64,000 bases of DNA from Halobacteriovorax sp. HLS (GCF_004006665.1 NZ_QOCL01000001.1:124001-188000); one strand, 5' to 3'; positions 1,624 through 22,757 are shown, numbered from the stretch's first letter. A program made the numbers and translations. The notes: generated by a model not told the origin, from the sequence alone.

Positions 1624-4600
1624 TTGATAAATAAGTATCTACTTTTCATATTCATCACTATTTTTATGGCGACTAGTACTAGTGTAAGTGCTGCATGTGG
1701 TGCGAATTCAAGAGTTTGGGCCGGCTCAACTATATCTTGGAATGATGCCTCCAACTGGAGTGGGTCAGATGTACCAGACACTGCTTTAGAAAATGCAATA
1801 ATTGTTAACACTGGTGTCAATGCAAGAATGGATACAAACCTAACTGTTGGTTGTGTTGATGTTCAATCAGGTTTCTTCGAAGCAACACAGAATAGAACTT
1901 TAACAATTGTCGGAGATTACTTTCAAGCGCCATTTGCAAATACTCTAAATATTACAAGTAATAGATTTAATATTGATATGGCGGGAACTGCTCCTCAAAC
2001 ATTTGAGGCCGTTGATGACGTTAGAGATGTTACCTTATCCAATAATACTTCTGTAACCCTTAAAAATGATTTTCGAATTAGATCTGATCTAAATATTACG
2101 AGTACTGGGATCACTTATGTTGAAGGTGATATAACTCTAAACAATGGAAGTATTCAACAACAAATCCCAGCTGGTCATACCGTTGTTATAAAAAATGGTG
2201 GTTCAATATTTGCGAAAGGCGGATTATCAGTTAGCGGTGTTTTAAAAATAGAAGCTGGTGGAGAGCTTCGAATTTTTAGAGATAGAACTCTTAATGTTGC
2301 TAGTGGTGGTGTCCTACAGGTTCTAGGAGCTTCAGGAAATCCCGCAAAGATTGTTTCAGAAGCATCAAATAGAACTTTTATATTTACTATGAATGGAAAT
2401 CTATCCGCAGATAACTTTACCATTCAAAGAACAAGTGCTTCTGGAGTAAATATTGGATCAACAGGAACAATTACTCAGATGGATAATGGGGAGTTTAGAG
2501 GGATACGTTCTAACGGTTTTGCAATCTCCCTTGCAAATGGGGCCAGTATCCCATCTACCATGAGTTCGATAGGATTCTATAACGATGATGCTCAATCAAA
2601 TGTTTTTAACTTTAATGCAAATTCATATAGTGGTAGTGCAACCACGATTGATAATTATTCTGGCGATGTTGCAGGTTCAGCTTTTGAGGCAGATGCAAAT
2701 GGAAGAATAAATTGGACGACTATTGCTCCAACTGAGCTTTCTGTTGTTGATGATGCTGAGACCGGAGAACCTCGAATCTTTACCGACCCTACTGATGAAT
2801 TTACCTTTGCTGAATTTGCCTTCTCACTCACTCAAGATGATACAGTCACAGATATTACAAGTGTCACTCTTACAATGACAGGTACGGCATCAATATCTGA
2901 CTTTGAATATATCCGGGCCTATATAGACTCGAATAATAATTGTAATTACAATGCAAGTAATGACACACTAATCGGAGACCTATCATTTTCAGGTTCTCCT
3001 GCTAAAGCTGTTGTAACGATTCCTCCTGGAGAAATTCAAACAACAGGACCTAGTGATCAAGGTTGTCTAATTATTAGAGCGAAGGCCTCTGCAAATCCAA
3101 GCGACTCGAAAACAATGAAATTTGGGATTATGTCAGCAGGGCATGTTACAAATTCTCAAGGTTACTCATTTTCTACAACAAGTAGCCCTCCAGTTGAAGG
3201 AAAGATGTCGACCGTAAGAAACTCTAACTACTCTTCGTGGAACGGATCTACAAGTAGCAATTGGACAGTAGCAACAAATTGGTCAGGTGATACACTTCCA
3301 ACTTCTACTAGAGATTGCCAAATTGGTGTTGGTACAAATACGACACTTATAAATACTTCTCCCGTGGCCTGTGCGAATGCAACACTTCAAACGAACGGAA
3401 CTATAAACTGGAATAGCTCGACATTTCACTTTGAAGTTTATAGCTCACTCAATATACAATCATCCTTTAACTTCTTAAACGCTAGTAACGGATCTATAGT
3501 GATGAAAGGTTCTGCAAATCAATCACTAACCTCCTCAACTACATTTCCAGGAAACCTTATTATAAATAATTCAGGAACAAGTGCTTCTAACACTGTCTCT
3601 GTACTATCAAATATTACTATTTCTGGAAACCTAACTTGTAGCGATGGACGTCTAGCAATTCCAAATGGTGTAACTTTAAATGTACTTGGTAACGTCACTG
3701 TTCAAAATGGGTGTGAAATCGACATTCAGTCTGGTGGAACGATAGCTCTAGGTAACGGAAGAACCTTCACTGTTGATAGTGGTGGTTCATTAAAAATGGT
3801 TGGAACTTCAGGAAATAAGGCGAAACTTACAACTACTAATAATAGTTATGCCATGGCCGTTGTTATAAATGGTTCCATCAATGCGAGATACTATATTTTC
3901 GATCATCTTGCGACTTCAGGAGTTACCATCAACTCTGGAGCGACAATAAATGTTACAAATCATTTACAAGACGGTTCGTTTACTTATCCAGTAAACTCAT
4001 CTTCGACGCTACTGAACCTACATACACAAATACCGACAAACACTCTTTCAAATATGACTTTTGATTCAAATGGATCTTCTGCAACTAGTATTACTAATAT
4101 AAATACTAATTCCACAAGCGCAGGTACTCTATCTATTACGAGTCACACAGGTAACTTAACAGGATCATCTTTTGATAGTACCGGAAGTTATCTCATATCA
4201 TGGTCAGGAGAAACTAATACAATCTTACTTACGCGCGAAGCGAGTAGTCCCTCAACAGTAACGGTTGGTGGAACTTATAATATGGTAAGATACGGTTTTC
4301 AACAAGCATCGGCAGGTGCCTACTCTAATACAGATATAACAAGTCTAAAATTAACTTTAACTGGTACTGGTACTGCAAGTGATATTCAAAATATCCAAGT
4401 CTATTATGATAATGACTGTAACGGATCAGGAGGAGGACTTATAGGTTCAGGGACTTTCTCTGGAAACCCTGAAAGTAGGACTTTTACTTTTTCTCCCGGA
4501 CAATTTACAGTTGAAGCGGATGCTATCTCACCACCTAAAAGGTGTATCTTTGTCTACTACACAATCGCAAGTAATGCGACAGGAAATAATACTGTTGGAG

Positions 4601-7600
4601 TTAGCATCGCCTCGGGAAGTGATATTGTAAACTCTCAAGGTTACGCTTTATCTGCCACAACTCCTACGCCAGTAACTTCTAATATTTCTTCGAGTATCTA
4701 CGCACCATCGACGACAATCTGGACTGGTTCGACAAGTACTGACTGGAATAATGCTTCAAATTGGTCCGCAGGTGTACCAAGTTCAACGAAGTCTTGTCAG
4801 ATACCAAGCGCTTCCAACAACCCTACCATCAGTAGTGGCATAGCAAGCTGCCAAAATATTGATATAACAAACGGAACACTTACTCTTTCAGCAAGTGCTA
4901 CTCTGGAAACTTACGGCAACTTTACAAATAATGGAACATTCAATCAGTCAGGAACACTGGAAATTGAAGACAATGGTTCAAGTTCAAACCACAATATTAC
5001 ATCTACTTCTACTTTAACTAATTTACATATAAATAAAACGGGTGGCGGGACAATAGGAATTACAGATTCATCTTTACAGATTAATTCAATAATTATTAAC
5101 AATTCGAATTTCTTATTTAAGATCTATAATGGTAGAAAACTTATTCTACCAAATGGTCTTAATATGTCCGCGGGAACATTTCAACTTGATAGTGGTGGAA
5201 CGATTGAAATTGGTAACGGCCAAACGCTACTAGTAAATGGAGCTGTCTTTCTTATTGCTGGTACAAATGATTCATTCCCACAAAACTCCGCAACAAAAGG
5301 TCTAATCCAACCTATAGGAGGAAGTGGTACTTGGGGCTTAACAACAACTTCAGGACGAATTAGCTTCTCTGGATTTCACTTTAGCAAAATGAATACCTCA
5401 GGTTTAAATATTGGAGGATCAACAATTGTCACATCACTAAATGGAGGACAGTTTACTAATCTCTCAACAAGTTATGGATCAGTGAGAGCAATTCAAATTA
5501 ATACAACAGGAACACTCCCTGCATCGGCGACGAATATCGCTTGGACATGGGGAACATTTAACACTTTCACTGCTTCAGCAGGAACTCCAACAAGCGCTAG
5601 TTCATATAATTTAATTTACTCAAGCGGCTGTTCAGGTCATTCCATAGATTTTAGTGGGTGGACAGGAGACTGGTATGAGTCGCAGCCTACATTTGATGTT
5701 AGTACTAAAGTGACTTCATCAAACTGTAATATTTCGCTATCGAGCTCTCAATCATCAGTTAGTTTAGCAAACTTTGAGGCCATACCATATAATTCAAAAA
5801 TTGATATTAGATGGACTACTGTATTGGAATCAAATCATTTAGGCTTCAATCTCTTTAGATCAAGCTCATTAAATGGAAATGACTTTCAACAAGTTAATAC
5901 AGATTTAATAAGAAACTTAAATAACGCTGGTCAAGCAAGAGGTACATATCGATTCGTAGATGAAGATGTTAATAATGATCAATTCTATTACTATTTTCTT
6001 GAAGATATGGAACATGGTGGAAAAAGAACTTTACATGGGCCAGTGTTTGCAACACCAAAACTTGCCCTTGGCAATCCTCCAGCGGATGATAGCTCAGATA
6101 ACAATGGATCAAATCCAGATGATAGTGATGATGGAGGCACAGACTCCCCTACTCCAATCAAAAACCCAAGTTATAAAGACTTAGGAAATGGTATTGAGAT
6201 ACTTTCTCAAACGTCTACTAATATTCGCTTGAAGATCACTCCTCCAACTCCTACTTACTCTACAAGTTCATGGAATGGTTCGTATGAAAATATAAATATA
6301 GCAGGCTACTCTAAATCTTCACGACCTGGACACCCAGAACTTGCTGAAAAAGAAGTTCTGATAGAAGTTTACCAATATGCAACAAATGCAACACTAGCAC
6401 AAGTTAATCAGACCGAGGTTATCACAAACTCTAAGGACATTGCTCCTGCGCCAAGCTATTCACAAGATGGTGATGGAAAATTAGTTGAATCTCACTCATT
6501 AGATACTGATGCATACGCACTTAATAGTTTTGCGCCAAATGAATATTTGGATATTGAATCTAATCTAATCAAAATTGGGAATAAGAAGTATCTAAGACTT
6601 ATGATTAGGCCAGTTAGATATAACCCTACACTAAAAGATATTAAGTTTTCTAGCGTAATAAACGCTGAGATCTCAATTGATGGAAACGACTGGAATGTAA
6701 CTCCACCTAGTAATGACTATCAGGCACTTGCGTACTTAATAAATAATTCGTTAAAAATCGAAGTCAATTCGACAGGTATGCATCAGCTCAATTATTCAGA
6801 CTTAGTAAACACTTATACAAGTGATCCATTTGAAAATACTAATCTTAACGAACTTAGACTATACAATGGAGCTAGTGAAGTACCTCTTGAAATAGTAAGC
6901 AGTGACTCTCTATTTAACAGTGGAGACAAACTTAGATTCTTCGCAAAACATATACCTTCGAAAGAATCAAAAACAACGACTCTCATTCTTACAACAGTAG
7001 ATGCGACCAATAGCTCGGCAACACCAAAACGTATCACAAGTTTTGATGGAACTCCAAGTGATTTTGATGAAGCATCTGAAGTATTAACTCAATTCAACAA
7101 AGAACTTGAAAATGATTTAATCTATGTTGATGGAATTAGTCTTGGTCATTCACAAGATCACTTCATGTGGAAGAAGATGTTCACATTCACAGGTTGGGAC
7201 ACTTTTTCGACATCAACTCAACTTAATGAATTAATCAACACTAGTGATGAGAACGTGATCGTTTCTTTTAATTTAAAAGGAAACCCTGGTCAAATCTATG
7301 GAAATCACATGCAACACCATATTGAATTATCTATTAATTCAAACTTAGTTGATGAAATGAAATTCTGGAGTAATGATTATCATAAAGTCTCTTTCGAAGT
7401 CCCTGCGGATTACTTTATAGCAGGAATGAATAGTATTTCATTAAAACTATTAGATACACACGTAATAAACTCTGATTTAGATTTTATGTATATTGATAAA
7501 GTTGCAATCAATTATATTGGAGAGATGACTGCGACAAGTAACACAACGAACTTTAATGTCTATGAAACATTAGTTAAGTATGAAGTAACAGGCTTTACTA

Positions 7601-9129
7601 GCAATGATATAAATATTTATGACACAACAAATGAACAAACTATAAAAATAGCCAACCCAACAATATCAACTCCAAATGGCGGTACAAGTTACAATGCTCT
7701 ATTTGGTGTAGATGATCTTACAAACTCTAATTCAGAAAAAGAAATCTATGCTCTGACAGAGGCGGCTTTCTTGAGTCCAACGGCCCTATCACTGAATCAA
7801 GGGGTTGTATCATATCTAAAACAAAATTCGAATCGAGCGGACTTACTCATAATTGGGCACTCTAATCTTATCTATGCGGCCAGTGAACTTGAACAGTTAA
7901 GAAACTCTCAAGGGCTAGAGGTGCAAAGTATCTCACTTGAGCAAGTATATGCGGAATTCTCAAACGCTGCAGTGAGCACTAAGGCGATAAAGGACTTTAT
8001 AAAATATGCCAGAACATATTGGGAAAAAGCGCCTCGTTATATCCTATTACTAGGAGACGGTTCAACAGACCCACTTGATCACAATATAGATAGCTATAGT
8101 AATCTTGAGAGAACATCTGATGATGTTGAGACAATTCCAATGCCACTTTCTGTTGGTCGATTCCAAGATTATGGAAATGATAATTACTTTGTTGAAAATA
8201 CAACTAACCACCTACCTGCCCTGGCCATAGGTCGATTGCCTACAAATGACCCTGAAGTCATAAGAAACTATATTCAAAAAGTTAAAGACTTTGAAAATGG
8301 AGTAACAACTCCAACAAATATAAAGAATGTCAGTTTTCTAGCAGGTAGAGATAGCGGCTCATTTGATAAATTCTTAGAAAAGTCTAAACAAGTTGCTCTA
8401 AGCGTAAAGTCCCATAACTCATCACTTACAACTTCTATGAGTGATGCTGCAGATCATACGACTGACTTACAAATTAAAACACAAGTACAATCGATCTTCG
8501 AAAGTTCACCGCTTATAGTCTCTATGATGGGGCATGGTTCGTCTACGACATGGGGGAAGACAAATTCCTTTAAGAATACTGACGCCGCAAACCTATCTAA
8601 TACTACTCATCCAATTGCGATGATGTGGAGCTGTGAGGGCGCTCAATATTACTCGCCTGAAAAAGAGAACCTATCGATTGGTGAACAGCTAGTATTCAAT
8701 AAGAATGGCGGTGCAGTTGCCTACCTTGGATCCACAACTTTTACGACTCCTTCAGCACAAATAAAATTGGCCAATAGCTTCTTCACACAATTCTCCATTG
8801 AAACGAGTAAAGTATATAATAACCATAGAATTGGTGACATCTTACTGACTGCAAAGGCCGCGGTTGGGACAAATGAATATGAAAGAGATATCATTGGTAG
8901 TTTCTCTATAATCGGGGACCCTTCAATTCAACTTCCAAAAGAGATATTTGCACCTCCTCCAGCAGCGCTACAATTTGAAGCCCCAAAGGCAACAGGTGGC
9001 GGATGTTCAGCATTTGCAAGTGATGGATTAACTCAAATACCTTGGTACTATGGCTTAATGGAGTGGTTATTCTATTTTGGTCTAATTTTCTTGTTTACTC
9101 TTGGAAGAAAGAGGATATTGCGCTTATAA
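1624..9129 (+). CDS. Giant secreted gingipain-like (C25) cysteine protease with C-terminal sorting-type tail
   Basis: 2501 residues from a TTG start with AAGGA 7 nt upstream. Residues 1-24 are a signal peptide ending VSA-A. Three related units of about 500 residues begin at about 31, 538 and 1032, each opening with W-x-GS...NWS and carrying glycine/serine-rich beta-helix-like strands. A fibronectin-like segment (IDIRWTTVLESNHLGFNLFR) follows at about 1400, then an Asp-rich linker near 1490-1510. The C25 catalytic region covers about 2060-2440: RYILLLGDGSTDP near 2140, His2304 in MMGHGSS, Cys2337 in MMWSCEGAQ, and GGAVAYLGST after it. The tail has GGGCS at 2458-2462, a membrane segment at about 2474-2493 and the basic end RKRILRL. 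Known C25 enzymes mostly use type IX secretion; this tail instead looks like a MYXO-CTERM/GlyGly-CTERM type signal. The RiPP-like genes follow after 22 bp, apparently in one operon. Confidence 0.88.
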   Translation: MINKYLLFIFITIFMATSTSVSAACGANSRVWAGSTISWNDASNWSGSDVPDTALENAIIVNTGVNARMDTNLTVGCVDVQSGFFEATQNRTLTIVGDYFQAPFANTLNITSNRFNIDMAGTAPQTFEAVDDVRDVTLSNNTSVTLKNDFRIRSDLNITSTGITYVEGDITLNNGSIQQQIPAGHTVVIKNGGSIFAKGGLSVSGVLKIEAGGELRIFRDRTLNVASGGVLQVLGASGNPAKIVSEASNRTFIFTMNGNLSADNFTIQRTSASGVNIGSTGTITQMDNGEFRGIRSNGFAISLANGASIPSTMSSIGFYNDDAQSNVFNFNANSYSGSATTIDNYSGDVAGSAFEADANGRINWTTIAPTELSVVDDAETGEPRIFTDPTDEFTFAEFAFSLTQDDTVTDITSVTLTMTGTASISDFEYIRAYIDSNNNCNYNASNDTLIGDLSFSGSPAKAVVTIPPGEIQTTGPSDQGCLIIRAKASANPSDSKTMKFGIMSAGHVTNSQGYSFSTTSSPPVEGKMSTVRNSNYSSWNGSTSSNWTVATNWSGDTLPTSTRDCQIGVGTNTTLINTSPVACANATLQTNGTINWNSSTFHFEVYSSLNIQSSFNFLNASNGSIVMKGSANQSLTSSTTFPGNLIINNSGTSASNTVSVLSNITISGNLTCSDGRLAIPNGVTLNVLGNVTVQNGCEIDIQSGGTIALGNGRTFTVDSGGSLKMVGTSGNKAKLTTTNNSYAMAVVINGSINARYYIFDHLATSGVTINSGATINVTNHLQDGSFTYPVNSSSTLLNLHTQIPTNTLSNMTFDSNGSSATSITNINTNSTSAGTLSITSHTGNLTGSSFDSTGSYLISWSGETNTILLTREASSPSTVTVGGTYNMVRYGFQQASAGAYSNTDITSLKLTLTGTGTASDIQNIQVYYDNDCNGSGGGLIGSGTFSGNPESRTFTFSPGQFTVEADAISPPKRCIFVYYTIASNATGNNTVGVSIASGSDIVNSQGYALSATTPTPVTSNISSSIYAPSTTIWTGSTSTDWNNASNWSAGVPSSTKSCQIPSASNNPTISSGIASCQNIDITNGTLTLSASATLETYGNFTNNGTFNQSGTLEIEDNGSSSNHNITSTSTLTNLHINKTGGGTIGITDSSLQINSIIINNSNFLFKIYNGRKLILPNGLNMSAGTFQLDSGGTIEIGNGQTLLVNGAVFLIAGTNDSFPQNSATKGLIQPIGGSGTWGLTTTSGRISFSGFHFSKMNTSGLNIGGSTIVTSLNGGQFTNLSTSYGSVRAIQINTTGTLPASATNIAWTWGTFNTFTASAGTPTSASSYNLIYSSGCSGHSIDFSGWTGDWYESQPTFDVSTKVTSSNCNISLSSSQSSVSLANFEAIPYNSKIDIRWTTVLESNHLGFNLFRSSSLNGNDFQQVNTDLIRNLNNAGQARGTYRFVDEDVNNDQFYYYFLEDMEHGGKRTLHGPVFATPKLALGNPPADDSSDNNGSNPDDSDDGGTDSPTPIKNPSYKDLGNGIEILSQTSTNIRLKITPPTPTYSTSSWNGSYENINIAGYSKSSRPGHPELAEKEVLIEVYQYATNATLAQVNQTEVITNSKDIAPAPSYSQDGDGKLVESHSLDTDAYALNSFAPNEYLDIESNLIKIGNKKYLRLMIRPVRYNPTLKDIKFSSVINAEISIDGNDWNVTPPSNDYQALAYLINNSLKIEVNSTGMHQLNYSDLVNTYTSDPFENTNLNELRLYNGASEVPLEIVSSDSLFNSGDKLRFFAKHIPSKESKTTTLILTTVDATNSSATPKRITSFDGTPSDFDEASEVLTQFNKELENDLIYVDGISLGHSQDHFMWKKMFTFTGWDTFSTSTQLNELINTSDENVIVSFNLKGNPGQIYGNHMQHHIELSINSNLVDEMKFWSNDYHKVSFEVPADYFIAGMNSISLKLLDTHVINSDLDFMYIDKVAINYIGEMTATSNTTNFNVYETLVKYEVTGFTSNDINIYDTTNEQTIKIANPTISTPNGGTSYNALFGVDDLTNSNSEKEIYALTEAAFLSPTALSLNQGVVSYLKQNSNRADLLIIGHSNLIYAASELEQLRNSQGLEVQSISLEQVYAEFSNAAVSTKAIKDFIKYARTYWEKAPRYILLLGDGSTDPLDHNIDSYSNLERTSDDVETIPMPLSVGRFQDYGNDNYFVENTTNHLPALAIGRLPTNDPEVIRNYIQKVKDFENGVTTPTNIKNVSFLAGRDSGSFDKFLEKSKQVALSVKSHNSSLTTSMSDAADHTTDLQIKTQVQSIFESSPLIVSMMGHGSSTTWGKTNSFKNTDAANLSNTTHPIAMMWSCEGAQYYSPEKENLSIGEQLVFNKNGGAVAYLGSTTFTTPSAQIKLANSFFTQFSIETSKVYNNHRIGDILLTAKAAVGTNEYERDIIGSFSIIGDPSIQLPKEIFAPPPAALQFEAPKATGGGCSAFASDGLTQIPWYYGLMEWLFYFGLIFLFTLGRKRILRL

Positions 9130-9151
9130 TAGTCTTAAAGAGGATATCTAT

Positions 9152-9349
9152 ATGAATACAAAGAAGAATGAAGAAACAAAAACACTGGACCTTAAAGAAG
9201 ATGGTAAAAAGAAGAAATATCTTAAGCCAGAGATTATTTCTGAAGACTTAAATGTATTTGGTGCTTCTTGTAACGGATCTTTAAGTGGTGGAAGAAAGTC
9301 TTCTACTGGAACTCCAAATTTTTGCAATGCGAATAAGCTTAACTCTTAA
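9152..9349 (+). CDS. Candidate RiPP precursor peptide, 65 residues
   Basis: ATG 9152 is preceded by AGAGGA at good spacing. An in-frame start at 9101 lies inside the C25 gene and is rejected. The N-terminal half is charged and Lys-rich like a leader and contains KKYLKPEI (Y23, P26, I28), the YxxP-x-[LI] pattern that PqqD-like recognition domains bind in lasso and other RiPP leaders. The rest is small and polar: GASCNGSLSGG at 37-47, a Ser/Thr stretch, then NFCNAN, with Cys40 and Cys58 the only cysteines, and a C-terminal Ser65. The TAA overlaps the ATG of the HprK-like kinase. A PqqD follows in the operon and a radical SAM enzyme is nearby. Calling it a modified peptide is inference; the product and class are unknown. 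Confidence 0.7.
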   Translation: MNTKKNEETKTLDLKEDGKKKKYLKPEIISEDLNVFGASCNGSLSGGRKSSTGTPNFCNANKLNS

Positions 9350-10266
9350 TGCAATTTGAAACAAATTTCGAAAACAAGCCCCTTCTAGAGAAGAAATTAG
9401 AATTACTTAACAATATTCTTGTAAACTTCTGCGAGCAAAAAAAAACTTTGAAAAATGAAGTAAAAACTAGTTATCACGAAGAGGAGATATCTTTTTTCAC
9501 TTCCAATAACAAGCTTGAAAAAGACTTCGCCAAAGTGCTCCCTGCTTCATGGTTACAACCGAGCAGAAAAAGAACTCATTCCATTTATATATTTAACCCA
9601 GAAGACTATGGTTTTACAATTTCTGATTGGCAGTTTGAAACCTCTCAGGATTGTTTCTTAGATAGCACTCAAAAGTCCGCTCTTCAACGTGACTTTATTT
9701 CTCATGAGTTGAATGATCAAGAGACGATACTTATTTGCCATAATTCGATGGACGATGGCCTTAATAACTTTCTAAGATGGTTCTTACCTCGCAGACTATT
9801 AAAGAAAGGTACACTAGTCTTTCATTCATCATGTGTAATAGAAAATGGACAGGCAAAGGTCTTCCTTGGTCATTCAGGTGCTGGAAAAAGTACAATGGTC
9901 TCACTTAGAGAAGGTAGAGAACATCTTAGTGACGATATGAATCTTATTACCATAGAAAATGACAAAATCTTTATTCAAGCTGGCGCCATAGGTGGCTTAT
10001 TTTTTGACAAGGTAGATTACTCTAAGAAATACCCCGTTTCATCATTTTCATGGCTAGTACAAGATTCTCTGTTTTCATCACAAAAGCTTACTCCAACCAA
10101 GGCCTACACCAGGGCATTGGCTTCTGTATCCAATATTTTTTGGGATACATTAGAAGTGTCAGAAACTAATAAAGTAATGAAACTCGTGAAAAGTATAACG
10201 GCAGCTTGTCCTTTCTACTCACTTCACTTCAAGAAAGACCCAGAGGTTTGGAAATATGTGGAATAA
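9349..10266 (+). CDS. HprK-like kinase of RiPP-type cluster
   Basis: 305 residues. The C-terminal half carries an HPr-kinase-like nucleotide fold: FHSSCVIENG (158-167), P-loop FLGHSGAGKST (172-182) and HLSDD (192-196), matching the family pattern GxSGxGKS...LxxDD. The N-terminal 150 residues are not recognised, and the usual HPr-binding partner system is not present here. HprK-like proteins next to PqqD-family proteins occur in peptide-modification loci. In paeninodin-type lasso clusters such a kinase phosphorylates the C-terminal Ser of the precursor, and the precursor encoded just upstream ends in Ser. The gene starts within the precursor stop codon and overlaps the next gene by 11 bp, so the three are translationally coupled. 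Substrate is inferred, not shown. Confidence 0.8.
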   Translation: MQFETNFENKPLLEKKLELLNNILVNFCEQKKTLKNEVKTSYHEEEISFFTSNNKLEKDFAKVLPASWLQPSRKRTHSIYIFNPEDYGFTISDWQFETSQDCFLDSTQKSALQRDFISHELNDQETILICHNSMDDGLNNFLRWFLPRRLLKKGTLVFHSSCVIENGQAKVFLGHSGAGKSTMVSLREGREHLSDDMNLITIENDKIFIQAGAIGGLFFDKVDYSKKYPVSSFSWLVQDSLFSSQKLTPTKAYTRALASVSNIFWDTLEVSETNKVMKLVKSITAACPFYSLHFKKDPEVWKYVE

Positions 10267-10534
10267 AGATACAAAATTCAAAATAACGAACCAACTTCCA
10301 GCTAACCAAATTGGTGATGACTATATTTTACTTGATGCAAAAGCAACAAAAACTCACGAATTAAATGAAATAGGAAAGATTATCTGGACACAACTCCAAT
10401 CACCCAAGAGCATAAAAGAGTTATCAACGTCTCTTCAAGACACTTTTGATATAGACAGAGAAACTTTAGAAAATGACATTACCGACTTTGTTGGAAAATT
10501 AGAGCAACTAAAGCTCATCTCAATCGATGAATAA
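10256..10534 (+). CDS. PqqD-like peptide recognition protein (first copy)
   Basis: 92 residues with the PqqD fold pattern: DDYILLDAKATKTHELNEIGKIIW, then LQDTFDIDRETLENDITDFVGKLEQLKLI. PqqD-like proteins are RiPP recognition elements; they bind the leader of a precursor peptide and present it to a modifying enzyme. The gene overlaps the HprK-like gene upstream by 11 bp and the S26 peptidase downstream by 8 bp. It most likely binds the YxxPxI leader encoded at 9152. A second PqqD copy lies at 11856, next to the radical SAM gene. Confidence 0.88.
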   Translation: MWNKDTKFKITNQLPANQIGDDYILLDAKATKTHELNEIGKIIWTQLQSPKSIKELSTSLQDTFDIDRETLENDITDFVGKLEQLKLISIDE

Positions 10535-10952
10535 TTTTGAAATTAAAATTCAAGGCGATAGCATGTTTCCACTCATACTGAGTGACGACATACTTATTGT
10601 GGAACAAACTTCTAGCTATAATATTGGAGATATTATTATTTTCAGAGATGAAATGAAAGTCTACATAGCTCATCGAATTATTTCGCTCTCTCCCTTAAGA
10701 ACAAAGGGAGATTTTTCAGTATTGAGCGAGATAGTAACTCATGAAACAATATTTGGCAGAGTGAGCGCGATAAAAAAAAATAAATCCGAAGTTTCCCTTT
10801 ATGGAAAAGGTCTACCGATGAGACTCTTTGCAGAGATTTCTAAGATGCGACTAAAAGGACCTTTTTTAAGAAAGATCTCACTACTTTTACTTCATGTCAT
10901 TACGACGATCTTTCTTTTAATTTATTCAAGGCCCAGAAGAGATCATATTTAA
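10527..10952 (+). CDS. S26-family peptidase, ER/archaeal-like Ser-His type, membrane-anchored
   Basis: 141 residues. QGDSMFPLI carries the nucleophile Ser12, then NIGDIIIFRD, YIAHRII with His49, and TKGD at 59-62. In ER and archaeal signal peptidases (S26B) a His in HRV/HRI replaces the bacterial Lys base, and that arrangement is seen here. The C-terminal part (about 118-138) is one hydrophobic segment followed by a basic end. The protein is far smaller than LepB and is unlikely to be the general signal peptidase. Its place in the operon suggests leader removal or processing of the neighbouring peptide or protease. The 3' end overlaps the antisense nucleotidyltransferase gene by 53 bp. Confidence 0.75.
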   Translation: MNNFEIKIQGDSMFPLILSDDILIVEQTSSYNIGDIIIFRDEMKVYIAHRIISLSPLRTKGDFSVLSEIVTHETIFGRVSAIKKNKSEVSLYGKGLPMRLFAEISKMRLKGPFLRKISLLLLHVITTIFLLIYSRPRRDHI

Positions 10953-11799
10953 GAGACAGGAAAAGACTGTCTTTACTAAGATGTTTTATCAAAAAATACC
11001 TCAATCCTGACTGATGAACTTTCCATAATGTAATATGAGTGAAGAGATAGCTGTAGATGATAGTCGAGAATTGGAAGTTAATTTGTGTTTTAAAAAACTT
11101 GTTCAAACAATAGGAAACCATTTTTAAAGAGTTTACAACTTTGAGCTCTTTGGCCCTAGAATAGAGATTCGAATAATTTAGTTTCGTATTTTCAATATGA
11201 AGAAAGTAAATATCAAACAACCAAAATAGTTTTAAGAAAGTATGAGAAAAAGCGAGATGCGAACATAGGTATAAGAAGTGATCTTCATCACTTAGAGTAT
11301 CATAGTACTCATCAAGCTTAACTCTATTCCACTTCTGAAAATCATGATGATAGAGAAGCTTAGTGTGAACTTCGACATTTATTTCAACGGCCTCAGTGTT
11401 TTTTGTAAATTCAATCTTAAATTCGTTCGCAAACCACTTAGATGTCTTTTGAATGGTAAAGCCACGAGATAAAAGGACCTTCTTCACTGTAGCTAAATCC
11501 TGGGGGTCTACGAGAAGATCACAATCGGACATAAACCTAGATCCAATATCAGCATAAATAGTTTTAAGCAGAGCAATACCTTTTAAAATGCAGACTCTTG
11601 AGCTTAGCTGCTCTTTTGAAAAACATTCTCCAAGCTTACTAACTTCATTTAGAAGACAATCATTAAAATGCCATTGTCTTTTCCAGGCGCTTTTATAAGT
11701 ATTCAATGAGAATTTTGCAAAAAGAAGCCCTTCTATATGATTTTCTAATGCATCTTCTTTAGAAAAGTGAAATTCAAATATTGGCAATAGGTCTTTCAT
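10900..11799 (-). CDS. Nucleotidyltransferase-fold protein (NTP_transf_5-like)
   Basis: 299 residues from ATG 11799; a GTG start at 11826 is possible but would lie upstream of the promoter. The centre has VCILKGIALLKTIYADIGSRFMSDCDLLVDPQDL, the pattern of the NTP_transf_5 family (LKG...Y...R...D-x-D-LLV), with the two Asp as the expected metal ligands. The rest is helical and poorly conserved. Relatives occur in lasso and other RiPP clusters with HprK-like kinases, where some extend phosphate groups on the peptide. Transcription appears to start at the ATG itself: TATAAT on the minus strand at 11811-11806 ends 6 nt before it, and no Shine-Dalgarno is seen. It is convergent with the S26 gene and divergent from the second PqqD. 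Confidence 0.75.
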   Translation of the reverse strand: MKDLLPIFEFHFSKEDALENHIEGLLFAKFSLNTYKSAWKRQWHFNDCLLNEVSKLGECFSKEQLSSRVCILKGIALLKTIYADIGSRFMSDCDLLVDPQDLATVKKVLLSRGFTIQKTSKWFANEFKIEFTKNTEAVEINVEVHTKLLYHHDFQKWNRVKLDEYYDTLSDEDHFLYLCSHLAFSHTFLKLFWLFDIYFLHIENTKLNYSNLYSRAKELKVVNSLKMVSYCLNKFFKTQINFQFSTIIYSYLFTHITLWKVHQSGLRYFLIKHLSKDSLFLSLKYDLFWALNKLKERSS

Positions 11800-11805
11800 T
11801 TGAAT

Positions 11806-11814
11806 ATTATAACA
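11806..11814 (-). promoter_or_regulatory. Promoter of nucleotidyltransferase gene (leaderless)
   Basis: On the minus strand TGTTATAAT is an extended -10 element whose TATAAT ends 6 nt before the ATG at 11799. A start about 7 nt downstream would fall on the A of the start codon. No convincing -35 was found, which is usual with an extended -10. Confidence 0.6.
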
Positions 11815-11819
11815 TTGTC

Positions 11820-11849
11820 TTGTCACATAACACTATTTTTACCTATAAT
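11820..11849 (+). promoter_or_regulatory. Promoter of second PqqD/radical SAM operon (leaderless)
   Basis: TTGTCA at 11820-11825 and TATAAT at 11844-11849 are separated by 18 bp, a near-consensus sigma-70 promoter. The -10 ends 6 nt before ATG 11856, so the expected start site is the start codon itself and no Shine-Dalgarno is present. It lies back to back with the promoter of the minus-strand gene. Confidence 0.7.
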
Positions 11850-11855
11850 TATTGT

Positions 11856-12119
11856 ATGAACAGTCTTAGAAAAACTAAATTTCTCTCGTGGAAAAAATCT
11901 CCTACCCACACTCTAATTATAGACTCACGTTCTAAAAAGCAAATCCACAGATTAAATGAAGTTGGATCATTCCTATGGGAATCAATCGATAAAGTTCAAT
12001 CATGTGAAGAGTTACTTCAACTATTAACTTCAGAGTATGATATTGACAATGAGCAAGCGAAGCAGGATATCGAGATTTTTATTACAGACTTAAATGAAAA
12101 AGGACTTCTTGGTGGATAA
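11856..12119 (+). CDS. PqqD-like peptide recognition protein (second copy)
   Basis: 87 residues from ATG 11856 (a longer frame from 11781 would run through the promoter and is rejected). The pattern is that of PqqD: HTLIIDSRSKKQIHRLNEVGSFLWESI, then LLTSEYDIDNEQAKQDIEIFITDLNEKGLL. It is clearly related to the copy at 10256 but diverged. The radical SAM gene starts inside its last codons, so the pair is coupled. Radical SAM RiPP enzymes with no built-in recognition domain commonly work with a stand-alone PqqD, which is the likely role here. Confidence 0.85.
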   Translation: MNSLRKTKFLSWKKSPTHTLIIDSRSKKQIHRLNEVGSFLWESIDKVQSCEELLQLLTSEYDIDNEQAKQDIEIFITDLNEKGLLGG

Positions 12120-13170
12120 GAAAGATCAAATCATTCAATCATCGTTAGTTAAAGAAACTTTTAAAGAGGCATTTAGAACGAGCACTCCCCTGCTGACAAC
12201 TATCGAGATAACTCAAAGTTGTAATTTTAAATGTACTCATTGCTATAATTATGATCGATCAAGTGCACCCCCTAAAGATCTTATAGAAGATTCGCTTAAA
12301 GATTCAGAAATCATACAATTAATAAAGCAAATATCAGATCTTGGTGGATTATATTTAAATTTATCTGGTGGAGAGGTCCTTACGCATCCATCCTTGGGTC
12401 GATTCATCTCTTATGCAAAAGAGCTAAATCTCCTTGTTAAGATCAAAACTAATGGAGCTCTTCTTACGCAGAAAAAAGTACAAGAACTCTACGATCAAGG
12501 CCTTGACGGTTTAGACCTAAGCCTATACGGAAGCAATGAAAAGACATACAAAGATTTTACAAATTCTTCAAATTTCTCAAACGTTCTAAGCTCTCTAAAG
12601 AGCTCTAAAGAAATTGGTCTTGATGTACATGCGAGTATTATACTTCATCGTAATAATGTTAATGAGCTTGATGAGATGATTAAGATATGTGAAGACTTAA
12701 AGATACCATTTCAAATTTCGTACGAAGTTACCAAGAGATATGATGATACAGAGAACTCTAGAGACCAGGAAATAACCATTGAACAGTTTGAAGCCCTTCT
12801 ACAGGGAAAGCACTCTGATCGCTTTATGAGTTATAATACTGATAATAGTTTTCAATGTTCATGTGCACGAAGCGTTTGCGGAATAAGCTCTAGTGGGGAT
12901 GTTCTACCTTGTGTTGGTGCCCCAATAAAGTCTGGAAATATAAGAAATCAATCTTTATCAGAAATTTGGAAAAATTCTGATGAACTTAATAAAATAAGAC
13001 AGATCAAGAAAGATGATTTTAAAGAATGTGTTATTTGTGATGTTAAAGACTTCTGCACTCGCAGTAGCGGCAGTATTTTTATAAACACTGGAAACTATTT
13101 AGGCTGTGAAGAAATGACTTATAAACAAGCATCTCTTCGTAAGAAATACTATAAAACTAGTACTGACTAA
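12112..13170 (+). CDS. Radical SAM/SPASM peptide-modifying enzyme
   Basis: About 352 residues. GTG 12112 has AAGGA 7 nt upstream; the in-frame ATG 12094 lacks a ribosome site but cannot be excluded (six residues more). Near the N-terminus TQSCNFKCTHCYNY carries the CxxxCxxC motif for the 4Fe-4S/SAM cluster, followed by LYLNLSGGEVLTHP, the GGE motif. The C-terminal quarter is a SPASM domain: CSCARSVCGISSSGDVLPCVG, NIRNQSLSEIW and ECVICDVKDFC. SPASM enzymes install thioether or C-C links in peptides, or act as dehydrogenases. With the PqqD partner and the Cys-containing precursor nearby, a thioether link is plausible but unproved. The 3' end overlaps the convergent permease gene by 14 bp. Confidence 0.88.
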   Translation: MDKKDQIIQSSLVKETFKEAFRTSTPLLTTIEITQSCNFKCTHCYNYDRSSAPPKDLIEDSLKDSEIIQLIKQISDLGGLYLNLSGGEVLTHPSLGRFISYAKELNLLVKIKTNGALLTQKKVQELYDQGLDGLDLSLYGSNEKTYKDFTNSSNFSNVLSSLKSSKEIGLDVHASIILHRNNVNELDEMIKICEDLKIPFQISYEVTKRYDDTENSRDQEITIEQFEALLQGKHSDRFMSYNTDNSFQCSCARSVCGISSSGDVLPCVGAPIKSGNIRNQSLSEIWKNSDELNKIRQIKKDDFKECVICDVKDFCTRSSGSIFINTGNYLGCEEMTYKQASLRKKYYKTSTD

Positions 13171-13975
13171 TAATCTTTAAAGACCCGTTCTTTCTATAGT
13201 ACCTTATTCCTAGTGCAAAAAGTTTCCTTCCAATTAAAAAGACAATTCCCCACAGAGCTAAAAAAGCAATAGTTCGTAAGAAATCTTTATTTGTTAAAGC
13301 TCCACGATTAAGCAATCGAGAACTCTCGAGCATCAAAGTAAATGGAGAAAATGCTCTAAAAGCAGAAGCTAACCATTCAGGCAACACACTAAGAGGAAAG
13401 AAGCTTCCAGCACTTATAGCAACGAAAGTGTTTAGATAACCTATGGCCCCTGCACCTCTTCCAAAAAAAAGAAGTAAACAACTTAAACAAAGACCAAGTC
13501 CTAAGAATACAAAAATTGATACGATTTGAAGAAGGACAATTTTTACTAAAGATATAATTTCAAAATTCAGCCCAAAAATTGTTATGCTAAATAGTAACGT
13601 CAACAAAACCCTTTTTAAAGTTTGAACCAAATTCCAACTACTAAAAATCAAAATCAACTTATTAAGACCTATGGGTAAGCCGATATATACTAAGAAAGTG
13701 CCTTCCATTATTGAACTTTTCAATTTTTGATAAGGAGCATCTAAAAAGTACAATGGCAACATCATAAATATTTCACCAAAGACTACATAATCAAAGTATC
13801 TTCCTTCAAAAGGATTAGCTTCTTTACTGAGTCCATTATCAAAAGCCGCAGAGATATAATAATAAACTGTGAGACCTACTAAAATGCTAATAACTTCAGC
13901 AAAATGGCTCAACCTTCTTGTATATTGATTCTTAAGACTCACTTGAAACATTTTGAAAATCAAATTAATTAACAA
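13157..13975 (-). CDS. ABC-2 type transporter permease
   Basis: 272 residues with about six hydrophobic segments, for example ISILVGLTVYYYI, VVFGEIFMMLPLYF, IVSIFVFLGLGLCLSCLLLFFG, TFVAISAGSFFPLSVLPEWL and FLALWGIVFLIG. The SAGSFFPLSVLPEWL stretch before the last segments is typical of ABC-2 permeases. The gene overlaps the ATPase gene by 11 bp, so the two make one transporter, normally as a 2+2 complex. ABC-2 systems are mainly exporters. The substrate is unknown; convergent placement against the radical SAM gene makes the peptide product one candidate, but the operon partners differ. Confidence 0.82.
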   Translation of the reverse strand: MLINLIFKMFQVSLKNQYTRRLSHFAEVISILVGLTVYYYISAAFDNGLSKEANPFEGRYFDYVVFGEIFMMLPLYFLDAPYQKLKSSIMEGTFLVYIGLPIGLNKLILIFSSWNLVQTLKRVLLTLLFSITIFGLNFEIISLVKIVLLQIVSIFVFLGLGLCLSCLLLFFGRGAGAIGYLNTFVAISAGSFFPLSVLPEWLASAFRAFSPFTLMLESSRLLNRGALTNKDFLRTIAFLALWGIVFLIGRKLFALGIRYYRKNGSLKIISQY

Positions 13976-14615
13976 GCTTCCCTCCTTCTAACGAGTATTC
14001 GACAATATCAAATGTCTCGCGAAAGCTCTGTGGATGGTGAGTGCTAAAGATAAGTATTGAGTCTTTAAACTCTTCGTTGAGCAGAAGTAGTAATCTTTTA
14101 CGTGTTTCAATATCAAAACTCTTAAAACACTCATCAAAAATAATGACTAATGGTTCAACTAAAGTCATTATAAAAAGTGAAAGAACACGCTTCATACCTT
14201 GAGAACAATGATGAAAGGAGGATTCAATGGCCTCTCGAAATATGGGAATCTCACTCCATTTCAAAATTCTATTCTCTAACTTTTGAGAAGAAATATTCAA
14301 AATCTCTGCAAAGTATTTAATATTATCAAGCCCTGTGAGTCTTGGATAAATCACTTCATCTTGCGAGGCTATAAAAATGATCTTCGATTTCAATTCAGTA
14401 AAAGTCAAAGAGTTGAAATTTTGATTTTCGATAATTAGCTCAGAATGAGAGCACAAGAAATGACCACTTATAATTTTTAGAAATGTCGTCTTACCTACTC
14501 CGTTTTTACCTGTGATAATAATTCTTTGTCCTGATACAAATGAAAACTCACAATCACGAAGAACGATTTTTTCTTGGAAAGACTTAGAAATATTTTTGCC
14601 ACTAAATTGAAACAT
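13965..14615 (-). CDS. ABC transporter ATP-binding protein
   Basis: 216 residues, a minimal ATPase. Walker A is ITGKNGVGKTT, the signature is an unusual CSQGMKR in place of LSGGQ, Walker B with catalytic Glu is LVIIFDECF, and the switch His is in FSTHH. The short length and heme- or antibiotic-export-like layout fit an ABC-2 partner. It is coupled to the permease downstream by an 11 bp overlap and follows the NlpC/P60-like gene at 19 bp. No Shine-Dalgarno is visible in the AT-rich sequence before the ATG; GATAAT and TAATAT lie 6-8 nt upstream, so an internal promoter with a leaderless mRNA is possible. Confidence 0.85.
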   Translation of the reverse strand: MFQFSGKNISKSFQEKIVLRDCEFSFVSGQRIIITGKNGVGKTTFLKIISGHFLCSHSELIIENQNFNSLTFTELKSKIIFIASQDEVIYPRLTGLDNIKYFAEILNISSQKLENRILKWSEIPIFREAIESSFHHCSQGMKRVLSLFIMTLVEPLVIIFDECFKSFDIETRKRLLLLLNEEFKDSILIFSTHHPQSFRETFDIVEYSLEGGKLVN

Positions 14616-17502: not shown

Positions 17503-18158
17503 AGATAGTTGCAGTCTCTGATACACATCAAGCTTATTTAAAAAATATGCCTGCCGGTGATATCCTAATTCATGCAGGAGACTTTAGCCTCTTGCCTAAG
17601 AACTCATACGAAAATAGAGAATTAATGCTCTCAGAACTCTCAGATTTAAAGAACTGGTTTGATAGTATCAGACATCTCTATAAACATACGATCTTAGTCC
17701 CTGGAAATCATGACTGGATTTTTGAAGTAGACTACAACTTTGCTTCAAAGTTTATGGGAGAAACCCTCGTTCTAAATGATAGTAGTGTCACGCTTGAAGG
17801 CCTAAAGATTTGGGGAACACCTATAAATTTAGAGTATCGAAATTGGGCCTTCAATAGGGCCGCTGGTGAAGAAATATTAAGACACTATAATATGATTCCA
17901 AAAGACACAGATATTTTAGTTACTCATGGGCCGCCACTTAAAATATTAGATCAGGCATATCCCCAAAAGAATAGTCCTCATTTAGGTGATCAAGACTTGC
18001 TCTCGACAGTTGAAGGCCTCAAATTAAAAGCACATATCTTTGGTCATATTCATGGATCTCACGGAACACTCGTCAGAGGAGAAACAACCTATATCAATGC
18101 AAGTATTATGGATGAGGCCTATGAGCCCTCTTTCTCCCCCATCATTTTCGAAGTATAG
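17499..18158 (+). CDS. Calcineurin-like metallophosphoesterase (UPF0046/MPPED-like)
   Basis: 219 residues carrying the full set of metal motifs in order: VSDTHQ, GDILIHAGDFS, PGNHDWIF, LVTHGPP and FGHIHGSHG. These bind two metal ions in the family and support phosphodiester or phosphomonoester hydrolysis. The spacing and the GPP form fit the MPPED/UPF0046 group, for which the natural substrate is usually unknown. The start overlaps the MFS stop (ATGA). The last 40 bp overlap the convergent polysaccharide gene. Confidence 0.88.
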   Translation: MKIVAVSDTHQAYLKNMPAGDILIHAGDFSLLPKNSYENRELMLSELSDLKNWFDSIRHLYKHTILVPGNHDWIFEVDYNFASKFMGETLVLNDSSVTLEGLKIWGTPINLEYRNWAFNRAAGEEILRHYNMIPKDTDILVTHGPPLKILDQAYPQKNSPHLGDQDLLSTVEGLKLKAHIFGHIHGSHGTLVRGETTYINASIMDEAYEPSFSPIIFEV

Positions 18159-19396
18159 AGCTTTTCATGAAATGGTAAAAAAACAAGTATTAGAGCAAAT
18201 AGATAGATTACTTTTGGCATAAATACAACATTTCCACCTTTATAATTTAAAATGATGAATACTGCTATTATTACAACTGCTTCACGACAATCAGAGTATA
18301 ACTTCTTTGCCAACGCACTCATATAGCCAAAGTAAAGAATCATTCCGTAGATACCATATCGATAAATCTCTTGAACATAGAAACTATCAGAGTAGCTCTT
18401 TGAAGTTAAAACATTAAGTTTAAATTCATGCTTTGGACGTATGAGTATTAAAGGTCTTTGGTTTAAACTCTTAAAGAAACCTTCATTCCATTCCAAAAGA
18501 GTTGTTAATGATGATGAGCTCTCACTACCTTTGTCTGAAAAAATATCTAAAGCAACTAAAACCCATGACTTATTAACAAGTCCAGCATCTAGAAGAAGAT
18601 TAATTCCAAGATACCCTAGAGGACCAAGAACAAAGGTAAAGAGCAGTATTCCACGAAACTTGCTTGCTAGCTTCTTCCCTTTAGCAAGAAGAAAGGCACT
18701 AATAAGAACCACTGGAATAAAAAGTAGAGACGTCCTTGCAACCATTGTTTGAATGACAAAAGTTATGACAAGTATTATCAGGACATGGATTTTTGCCTTT
18801 TTAGAAGAATCTACCTTATTAATATAGTAAAAGCATAGAAAGCTAAAAAGTATAAAGTATATCGCTGCTGTATAAAAATCTTTAAATATTGATGTATAAC
18901 GAAATGAACTAAATACATCTCCTGAAGTGAAGAAGAATTTAGGCGTATAGATCCTCGTAATAATACTTCTAAACCCAAAAATATTTATCTTTTGCAAGAT
19001 AACCACAACAGCGGGGATAAAACCTACAACTATAAGCCTATAAAGAAGTAAGCTAAACTGATCCTTCCCCTCCTCCATGACTCTAGTAAGTCTGTAATTA
19101 AGTATAGAGCATACCATCGCAGTTTGGACCATAAGCCTTAACATAAAAATGTCGTGACTATTCAAAACACTTCCAGCTAATAGAGAGGAAAATAGACATA
19201 CAAAAAGAAATCCAAACGAAGCAATTGTTAGAATATGAAAATAGCGATTTCTAACAATATTTTTAGAATTAATAATGAAATTTATATAAATATAGAATTC
19301 AGCAAAGTTAATTCGAGCACCGCCAGGTTCTATAACTGGCGATAATAATAAGAATGCAAATAGTAAGACTATTGATCTAGCGTCTTTTGTAAGCAT
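18119..19396 (-). CDS. O-antigen polymerase/ligase-like membrane protein
   Basis: 425 residues from ATG 19396, chosen because GAGGAG lies 5 nt upstream (a TTG at 19408 is rejected). About ten hydrophobic segments alternate with short loops, and one longer hydrophilic loop at roughly 290-340 (LEWNEGFFKSLNQRPLILIRPKHE) precedes the last membrane segments. That is the shape of Wzy polymerases and O-antigen ligases; no sequence motif fixes which. Last gene of the polysaccharide operon, overlapped by 40 bp by the convergent phosphoesterase. Confidence 0.65.
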   Translation of the reverse strand: MLTKDARSIVLLFAFLLLSPVIEPGGARINFAEFYIYINFIINSKNIVRNRYFHILTIASFGFLFVCLFSSLLAGSVLNSHDIFMLRLMVQTAMVCSILNYRLTRVMEEGKDQFSLLLYRLIVVGFIPAVVVILQKINIFGFRSIITRIYTPKFFFTSGDVFSSFRYTSIFKDFYTAAIYFILFSFLCFYYINKVDSSKKAKIHVLIILVITFVIQTMVARTSLLFIPVVLISAFLLAKGKKLASKFRGILLFTFVLGPLGYLGINLLLDAGLVNKSWVLVALDIFSDKGSESSSSLTTLLEWNEGFFKSLNQRPLILIRPKHEFKLNVLTSKSYSDSFYVQEIYRYGIYGMILYFGYMSALAKKLYSDCREAVVIIAVFIILNYKGGNVVFMPKVIYLFALILVFLPFHEKLYTSKMMGEKEGS

Positions 19397-19397
19397 T

Positions 19398-20924: not shown

Positions 20925-21652
20925 TTTAAAATTATCCCCTCAATTGCTAGAGAGCTCTTTCTATAGTAGTCAATATATCGACTGATCGCTTTTTCTTTGG
21001 ATTGTCTAAATTCTGCTAAGAAGGCAACACTGTCAATATGCTGAATAATTGGATAATAAAACTCTAGGTTACTCTCTATTTCTGTCAGAGGTGGCAGAGC
21101 AATGAAGTAAGCATTGTCTTTTTTCGAAAAAATATCACAGAGAATATTTTCATACTTTATAAGATCTACTTTACTATAAATATCTTTAATTCCATCTATA
21201 CCGTATTGAGAAAGAGAATATGTTTTATGAAACTCTAAAAAGGTTCCATTGTAGTTTTTTAACTCTTTAGTCATATCTTCTTTAACTAGTTTAACAAATG
21301 AGCTATCTTCAAACTTAGGAGTAATAATGTCACAAGTTACACCGTGATCGTAGTTAAAATACGAGCCAAGAGCAAGGCACATCTGTTCTAAATTTGTGTC
21401 ACTTCCAAATCCACTTATAGCAAAAACCCTTTTCCCCTCTTTGTAAGATTTGAAAAATTTCTTCCCTAAGTTTAGTAGCTCTATATGATTTTTAACTTTA
21501 AAATAACAACTAAGTGGTAACCGTTCCTTAGGATCTTCCGTTTCATTGGCCACATTAAATTTTAAAACAGAACCATAGAAATTCCCCTCACCTTGTGAGA
21601 CTGACATATTCTTTGAATCGTTAAATTTCTTTGCTGTCATAAAAAACTTCAT
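20921..21652 (-). CDS. CpsD/BY-kinase-like protein lacking a P-loop
   Basis: 243 residues, placed directly before the Wzz/GumC-like gene as CpsD/Wzc-type tyrosine kinases or MinD-like ATPases are. KRVFAISGFGSDTNLEQMCLALGSYF (about 75-99) aligns with the Walker A region of that family (xSxxPGEGKSTxxxNLA), but the Gly-Lys-Ser/Thr core is replaced by GSDTN, so nucleotide binding is doubtful. The later D-x-D and Walker B blocks are also not evident: VTCDIITPKFED stands where LLIDxDLR is expected. A C-terminal tyrosine cluster is absent, although YIDYYRK occurs near the end. Probably a structural or regulatory remnant of the family. Family call is by context and faint similarity. Confidence 0.5.
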   Translation of the reverse strand: MKFFMTAKKFNDSKNMSVSQGEGNFYGSVLKFNVANETEDPKERLPLSCYFKVKNHIELLNLGKKFFKSYKEGKRVFAISGFGSDTNLEQMCLALGSYFNYDHGVTCDIITPKFEDSSFVKLVKEDMTKELKNYNGTFLEFHKTYSLSQYGIDGIKDIYSKVDLIKYENILCDIFSKKDNAYFIALPPLTEIESNLEFYYPIIQHIDSVAFLAEFRQSKEKAISRYIDYYRKSSLAIEGIILK

Positions 21653-21734
21653 TAGTTAATAGTTTTATCTACAGACTTTTTCGACAGATTAATAAGATTT
21701 CTTTAAGAATGAAGGTGGCTACTAAATAAATATT

Positions 21735-22751: not shown

Positions 22752-22757
22752 TAGATA

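Follow-up and report, generated by a model that had tools for sequence, protein, structure and literature searches.

Linear polyphosphorylated peptides (LPPs), a kind of ribosomally synthesized and post-translationally modified peptide (RiPP) from Bacillota, were reported in 2026 as products of lppAKBSDN clusters, which in Bacilli sit in capsule loci (PMC13381572). The LPP leader is cut after F-E-T, with the F lying 13 residues past the Tyr of the leader motif (counted on the published consensus), and LppS, an archaeal-type SpI with a Ser-His-Asp triad, is a proven leader peptidase that depends on the RiPP recognition element (RRE) (PMC13381572). In paeninodin-type lasso peptide clusters, an HprK-like kinase requiring a His-Lys-Asp-Asp motif phosphorylates the C-terminal Ser of the precursor; in pseudomycoidin, a nucleotidyltransferase (NTP-transferase) homolog puts a hexose on the C-terminal Ser phosphate (PMC9266682). 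For both LPPs and paeninodins, the biological role is stated as unknown (PMC13381572). Here, we describe a locus within a 64,000-nucleotide stretch of the genome of Halobacteriovorax sp. HLS, a marine bacterial predator (NZ_QOCL01000001.1:124001-188000; hereafter, the window), where the gene for a giant C25-family surface protease is followed by a short RiPP precursor gene and by genes for an HprK-like kinase, two PqqD-type RREs, an S26 peptidase, an NTP_transf_5 enzyme, and a radical SAM/SPASM enzyme (rSAM). The reading we favor, at just short of even confidence, is that the locus makes an LPP-type RiPP to which a radical SAM step has been added and that the product serves the giant C25 as its dedicated partner. 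The analysis suggests a joint action of peptide and protease that has no earlier description.

Co-occurrence of the RiPP genes with giant C25 proteases

The distribution of these genes was surveyed in 369 genomes from one phylum, with a giant C25 defined as an open reading frame (ORF) of at least 1499 amino acids (aa; range 1499-3548 aa); subgroup counts are based on ORF length and draft assemblies. Precursor and giant C25 occur together in 27 genomes, the precursor alone in 8, a giant alone in 3, and neither in 331 (Fisher test, 1.3e-30). For the kinase, the corresponding counts are 28/5/2/334 (p 1.2e-34). Restricting the table to genomes with a completeness of 90% or more and a contamination of 5% or less gives 22/3/2/208 (p 1.3e-25). 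Two precursor matches that were weak on rescan (G217 and G303; E values between 1e-6 and 1e-3) and that perhaps come from other systems remain in the counts, where they slightly weaken the association. Four genomes with a canonical precursor and no giant (G079, G080, G236, and G240) are each represented by an assembly of at least 330 contigs. Given that co-occurrence tests ignore phylogeny, comparisons were also made inside genera, and joint presence versus joint absence between species was found in seven of them (g1, g14, g23, g12, g4, g16, and g17; the negative genome of g16 is only 56% complete).

C25 ORFs in the family sample are either short (mostly 500-1160 aa, plus fragments) or giant (2135-3322 aa). 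Giants were present in 11/11 genomes with a canonical precursor and in 0/48 others, and short C25s were present in both sets. That short C25s are found without the RiPP rules out a co-occurrence with C25 proteases in general. In 16 genomes, no more than about 10 kb separates the RiPP and C25 genes, which stand in varied orientations. The link to the protease, proposed in the earlier note from this one locus, is thus borne out by strong co-occurrence even where the genes are not adjacent; genome comparison confirms it for the giant C25, and short C25s do not track the RiPP. From these distributions, a functional dependence of the peptide on the giant C25 appears very likely.

A conserved precursor peptide

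A search with profile A2 retrieved precursor homologs from 35/369 genomes, spanning several families, which answers favorably the question of conservation that the earlier note had raised. Within a search of 59 family genomes, clear homologs were found in 11 further genomes. Codon differences between species fall mainly at third positions (in the G007/G053 pair, for example, the first, second, and third positions show 6, 1, and 24 differences, respectively). Because of these homologs and this codon pattern, the precursor ORF is, on sequence comparison, a genuine gene under purifying selection, and a chance ORF at 9152-9349 is ruled out on the same grounds. A search of the source genome found no precursor paralog (a 0.84 match contains a stop), and a search for plasmid-borne relatives found none. 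One genome, G239, encodes two precursors and two kinases, one canonical and one divergent, at L114 (G239:C38) and L088 (G239:C100).

All 35 precursors are complete. In the 29 that we term canonical, the first Cys (Cys1) lies 17 residues past the motif Tyr; 27 of these have a Cys1-Cys2 distance of 18 or 19, the other two have 15, and 7 residues follow Cys2. The last residue is Ser in 33/35 and Thr in 2/35, preceded by a variable position (N, L, K, T, Q, I, M, or S). A central G-G-R-K is almost constant. Overall, the core is the most constant region and the start of the leader the most variable, unlike most RiPPs, for which the core is not the most constant part. Thirteen residues past the motif Tyr, F or Y is found in 27/29 canonical precursors and in that of G034, followed in the canonical form by G/A and A. 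Since this Tyr-to-F spacing is the same as in LPPs and the residues are conserved, we predict leader cleavage at FGA^SCNG, which would release a 27-residue core.

Modification machinery

Only weak hidden Markov model (HMM) matches were obtained for the kinase, and because no strong family match was available, its structure was modeled. The model (pLDDT 91) has PEPCK (3e-9) and HPr kinase (9e-6) as its best folds, and a His-Lys-Asp-Asp motif (H159, K180, D195, and D196) is invariant in the 18 kinases compared. Judged by the modeled fold, the product of 9349-10266 is an HprK-like kinase. As the homologous kinase of paeninodin-type clusters targets a C-terminal Ser and the motif is invariant here, the terminal Ser/Thr is the obvious substrate, and by this analogy the C-terminal Ser of the precursor is probably phosphorylated. 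The PF14907 nucleotidyltransferase is present at 28 loci.

The closest PDB match of the first RRE is a solved RRE chain (9x90, a lasso PqqD chaperone), and lasso PqqD models are the best NCBIfam matches for the PqqD/B1-like RREs. The S26 protein is of the archaeal type (TIGR02228, 3.6e-9); nearly all S26 proteins of related loci contain the Ser-His-Asp triad, with the SM, HR, and KGD elements kept. By analogy with LppS, we assign it with good confidence as the leader protease. The rSAM carries CxxxCxxC and conserved SPASM cysteines, and its gene, or a contig edge at its place, was found in every kinase-bearing locus read. Two rSAM subtypes are apparent: subtype A, as in the window, is accompanied by a second RRE, and subtype B, which is 22-26% identical, is not. 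A Cys-based bridge is the likely rSAM product because Cys residues are the only constant reactive residues, although we judge this assignment to be about evenly balanced.

Across relatives, the precursor is accompanied by genes for an RRE, kinase, leader protease, nucleotidyltransferase, and rSAM, and the gene content indicates that the locus almost certainly makes a RiPP. The earlier note's proposal of a RiPP locus is upheld by the conserved precursor, by the purifying selection acting on it, and by modification genes found alongside it in relative after relative. The only other PqqD-like protein of the genome is encoded at L043 10008-10289 (-) (G000:C16), surrounded by genes for glycosyltransferases, radical SAM proteins, a DegT-like aminotransferase, and an ABC transporter; this cluster is possibly another RRE-dependent pathway without a recognized precursor. 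Since that cluster is unrelated and no precursor paralog exists, the possibility allowed for in the earlier note, that the RRE and rSAM serve a different precursor, is ruled out.

The giant C25 protease

The giant C25 comprises a signal peptide, three WxGSxSxDWxxAxNWS repeat regions, a C25 propeptide (aa 1531-1687), a catalytic domain (aa 2075-2437), and a C-terminal tail. The modeled catalytic domain is nearest to RgpB (TM 0.73), and the nearest PDB sequence is PorU, the sortase of the type IX secretion system (T9SS); against the PorU HMM, the giant scores 155 bits, below the cut-off of 420. The dyad is intact, and on sequence and model, the domain is active-looking. An acidic residue (D/E) is present in 20/20 giants, two positions before a conserved aromatic, in a loop of ambiguous alignment. 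The helix start bearing this D/E presumably lies near the S1 Asp of gingipain R. Owing to the ambiguous loop alignment, Arg/Lys specificity is only a lead. In G007, two giant C25 genes (2523 and 2858 aa) stand in tandem at L094 (G007:C9), and a third (3315 aa) lies on another contig.

At the C terminus of each giant, a Gly-rich Cys motif precedes a hydrophobic segment and mostly basic residues (loci L034, L036, L037, L040, L041, L074-L083, and L094-L111). The 12 tails that were aligned share an invariant Glu close to where the hydrophobic segment begins. Searched against the source genome, a profile of the tail matches the giant C25 and no other protein; the tail is apparently a single-client tag. 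For three tails tested, no NCBIfam match was obtained, which rules out a known CTERM family as its identity.

Proposed mechanism

The gene set, precursor geometry, catalytic motifs, and co-occurrence are read from the DNA, and from them we infer the chemical steps and the partner role. The RREs would hold the YxxPxI leader, and the rSAM would act on the core, with the stretch CNGx3GGRKx5PxxC most likely closed into a loop by a Cys-based bridge. The kinase would phosphorylate the invariant C-terminal Ser, to whose phosphate the NTP_transf_5 enzyme would probably add. Cleavage after FGA by the SipW-type peptidase and export by an ABC pair would deliver the 27-residue peptide. The exported peptide would then be the dedicated partner of the giant surface C25, whether as ligand, inhibitor/regulator, or preferred substrate, and it may, as the earlier note had suggested, be matured or controlled together with the protease. 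The Arg-Lys loop would most likely bind at or near the C25 active site. An inhibitor-like or substrate-like contact is attractive because the Arg-Lys pair is near-constant and the C25 fold is known for basic-residue specificity; direct binding through this loop is possible, if on balance doubtful. Constancy of the core across families points to a target that is fixed and internal to the system, and away from an arms-race toxin or a species-specific pheromone. It is a reasonable possibility, somewhat short of even, that one giant C25 with a single-client tail is what the whole RiPP pathway serves, the peptide regulating, activating, or anchoring it or being conjugated to it.

Alternative explanations

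Several observations weigh against a dedicated partnership. Co-occurrence counts are not phylogenetically independent, and the assignment of the S1 position depends on an ambiguous loop alignment. The C25 is encoded apart from the RiPP genes or on other contigs in 11 genomes (G007, G053, G044, G083, G202, G226, G239, G241, G349, G350, and G223). G034 (99% complete) encodes a kinase, RRE, rSAM, S26 peptidase, and NTP-transferase without any C25, and G230 (L109) and G256 (L106), both 100% complete, encode a giant C25 without detectable RiPP genes. As these three genomes carry one component alone, neither the RiPP nor the giant C25 strictly needs the other. The G034 locus (L042 7534-11301) is of subtype B and encodes a divergent core (CDGTTGGGKKGTTVAPDSC...LKT) with a poly-Gly insertion before Cys1. 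G087 (78% complete), also without a giant C25, has an altered core too. Exceptions in both directions and the unlinked genes of the 11 genomes would suit a peptide and a protease that are independent effectors (e.g., in predation or attachment), co-inherited for the same lifestyle without molecular contact, and each of the two is an accessory trait with a patchy distribution among predatory bacteria. However, an arms-race weapon would not be expected to have a core this uniform from family to family, the genes are neighbors in 16 genomes despite differing orientations, and gain or loss is concordant in seven genera, such that we consider this explanation unlikely. We give similarly low credence to the giant C25 as a maturation protease, making a final cut after export (e.g., at Arg-Lys) that frees or activates a signal or weapon acting elsewhere. 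The conserved Arg-Lys in the core, the C25 fold and its acidic residue close to the S1 position, and the C25-precursor operon order here and in several relatives are all in keeping with such a role, but an S26 leader peptidase is already present, a repeat-bearing surface protein of 2500-3500 aa would be a costly processing enzyme, and several genomes (G007 and G053) pair two or three giants with one precursor.

The tail of the giant C25 allows for a different partnership, in which the peptide is a putative surface anchor or adaptor: it would carry a phospho-glycan on its C-terminal Ser and be joined to the giant C25 or link the giant to exopolysaccharide. The GGGCSAxAxDG tail occurs on the giant C25 alone in the source genome, PsmN-type enzymes put a hexose on phosphorylated Ser (PMC9266682), and, by raw proximity, polysaccharide genes are found 3.5 kb from the RiPP genes and close to several related loci. 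We regard this role as very improbable, and we place just as little weight on the joining route it could use, a PorU-like transpeptidation of the single-client Cys tail, to which the PorU resemblance would lend itself; the usual route for Cys tails runs through lipidation and intramembrane proteases (PMC11980579). A lasso peptide cluster is the least credible interpretation. Despite the YxxP leader motif, PqqD/B1-like RREs, HprK-like kinase, and NTP_transf_5 enzyme, the genome contains no Transglut_core3 B2 gene, Asn-synthase genes are found on other contigs only, and two conserved Cys and an rSAM are present instead. Lasso peptide identity is ruled out by the absence of B2 from the genome and of a cyclase from the vicinity of the locus, as the earlier note had remarked for the locus itself.

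Organization of the locus and its surroundings

All ORFs described in the earlier note are present, with the coordinates, 22 bp gap between the C25 and precursor genes, and overlaps it had given (Table 1). The precursor, kinase, PqqD, and S26 genes overlap in order by 1, 11, and 8 bp; the NTP_transf_5 gene is divergently oriented, and the second PqqD and rSAM genes come after it. Gene families were assigned with Pfam and NCBIfam models. The ABC permease/ATPase pair (13157-14615), which the earlier note did not mention, recurs in roughly half of the genomes close to the RiPP genes or the C25 gene. A polysaccharide-type locus at 18119-23276 (-) of the window, 3.5 kb from the RiPP genes, encodes a glycosyltransferase and an SLBB/Wza-like protein, together with proteins that the context marks as Wzz-like and ligase-like. 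By raw proximity, the loci of about 12 other genomes likewise include glycosyltransferase-like or related genes.

Table 1. Features of the locus (window coordinates)
Feature	Position	Strand	Description
Giant C25 protease	1624..9129	+	2501 aa, TTG start, Sec-type signal peptide; PF01364 6.5e-58
Catalytic His codon (GHG)	8533..8535	+	Invariant in 20/20 giants
Catalytic Cys codon	8632..8634	+	Invariant in 20/20 giants
Tripartite Cys-type sorting signal	8983..9126	+	GGGCSAxAxDG + hydrophobic segment + basic tail; Cys at 9004-9006
RiPP precursor	9152..9349	+	65 aa, ATG start, YLKPEI, two Cys
YLKPEI leader motif (RRE-binding YxxPxI)	9218..9235	+	Y and P invariant
Predicted 27-aa core	9266..9346	+	SCNGSLSGGRKSSTGTPNFCNANKLNS; after cleavage at FGA^S, from LPP-like Y-to-F spacing and conservation
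Core Cys codons	9269-9271 and 9323-9325	+	Within predicted core
C-terminal Ser codon	9344-9346	+	Last residue of precursor
HprK/PEPCK-fold peptide kinase	9349..10266	+	Weak HMM matches, model fold, catalytic motif
First PqqD-type discrete RRE	10256..10534	+	PF05402; the two PqqDs of the locus score 4e-15 and 2e-16
Archaeal/SipW-type S26 peptidase, predicted leader peptidase	10527..10952	+	Ser-His-Asp, KGD motif, C-terminal hydrophobic segment
NTP_transf_5 nucleotidyltransferase-like enzyme	10900..11826	-	PF14907 2e-32
Second PqqD-type RRE	11856..12119	+	Likely ATG 11856, longer ORF from TTG 11781; adjoins rSAM gene
Radical SAM/SPASM peptide maturase	12094..13170	+	PF04055 + SPASM; CxxxCxxC plus conserved SPASM Cys
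ABC-2-type permease, candidate exporter	13157..13975	-	Recurs at related loci
ABC ATPase, candidate exporter	13965..14615	-	Recurs at related loci

Comparison with known systems

The earlier note knew of no described system with this exact set of genes. A literature search likewise found no description of the full set, but the kinase/RRE/SpI/NTP-transferase core has been described, as it matches LPP (PMC13381572). The locus extends this kinase/SpI kind of RiPP beyond Bacillota and adds a radical SAM step to it. It also supplies a genetically coupled partner protein, which the LPP and paeninodin families lack. Halobacteriovorax is a genus with cultured members, the partner is named, and the core is constant enough for residue-by-residue testing. 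If the peptide does inhibit, or is processed by, the C25, it would provide a lead for inhibitors of the C25 protease family.

Each part of the locus has a distinct set of relatives. With gingipains and PorU, the giant shares the C25 catalytic fold, His/Cys dyad, and propeptide, but it has N-terminal repeat regions, an attached RiPP operon, and a Cys-type C-terminal tail in place of the T9SS C-terminal domain. That tail resembles those of MYXO-CTERM/myxosortase targets (PMC11980579) in its tripartite form, invariant Cys, hydrophobic segment, and basic end, and differs in its consensus, in having no NCBIfam match, and in serving one client instead of dozens. Like the radical SAM/SPASM RiPPs (sactipeptides, ranthipeptides, and PQQ), the locus combines a CxxxCxxC and SPASM Cys enzyme with an adjoining RRE gene and core Cys. 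Unlike in those systems, the rSAM has no close named maturase (all NCBIfam matches are far below cut-off), and a kinase and nucleotidyltransferase, which are not part of them, are present. The paeninodin/pseudomycoidin-type lasso clusters (PadeK, ThcoK, and PsmN) share the HprK-like kinase with His-Lys-Asp-Asp, NTP_transf_5, a B1-like RRE, and a precursor ending in Ser, whereas here there is no B2 protease, cyclase, or lasso precursor pattern, and an rSAM and S26 peptidase take their place.

LPP and this locus have in common the YxxPx[VIL] leader, discrete RRE, HprK-like kinase, archaeal-type SpI with Ser-His-Asp, and NTP transferase, without a macrolactam cyclase. In both, F lies 13 residues past the motif Tyr and polysaccharide genes are often nearby. 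However, the LPP motif YxxPxVLxHQxIxFETxxS is not matched, FGA|xCN replacing FET|xxS and the Ser being C-terminal here versus at core position 3 in LPP, and a split ABC-2-type permease and ATPase stand in place of an MsbA-like exporter. Because these two stated LPP features fail and an rSAM is added (plus a second RRE in subtype A), we set the locus apart from LPP proper. A further difference lies in the core, which here is conserved and has two conserved Cys whereas that of LPP is variable. The hosts also differ, being Halobacteriovorax and relatives rather than Bacillota, and only the present locus is partnered by a giant C25.

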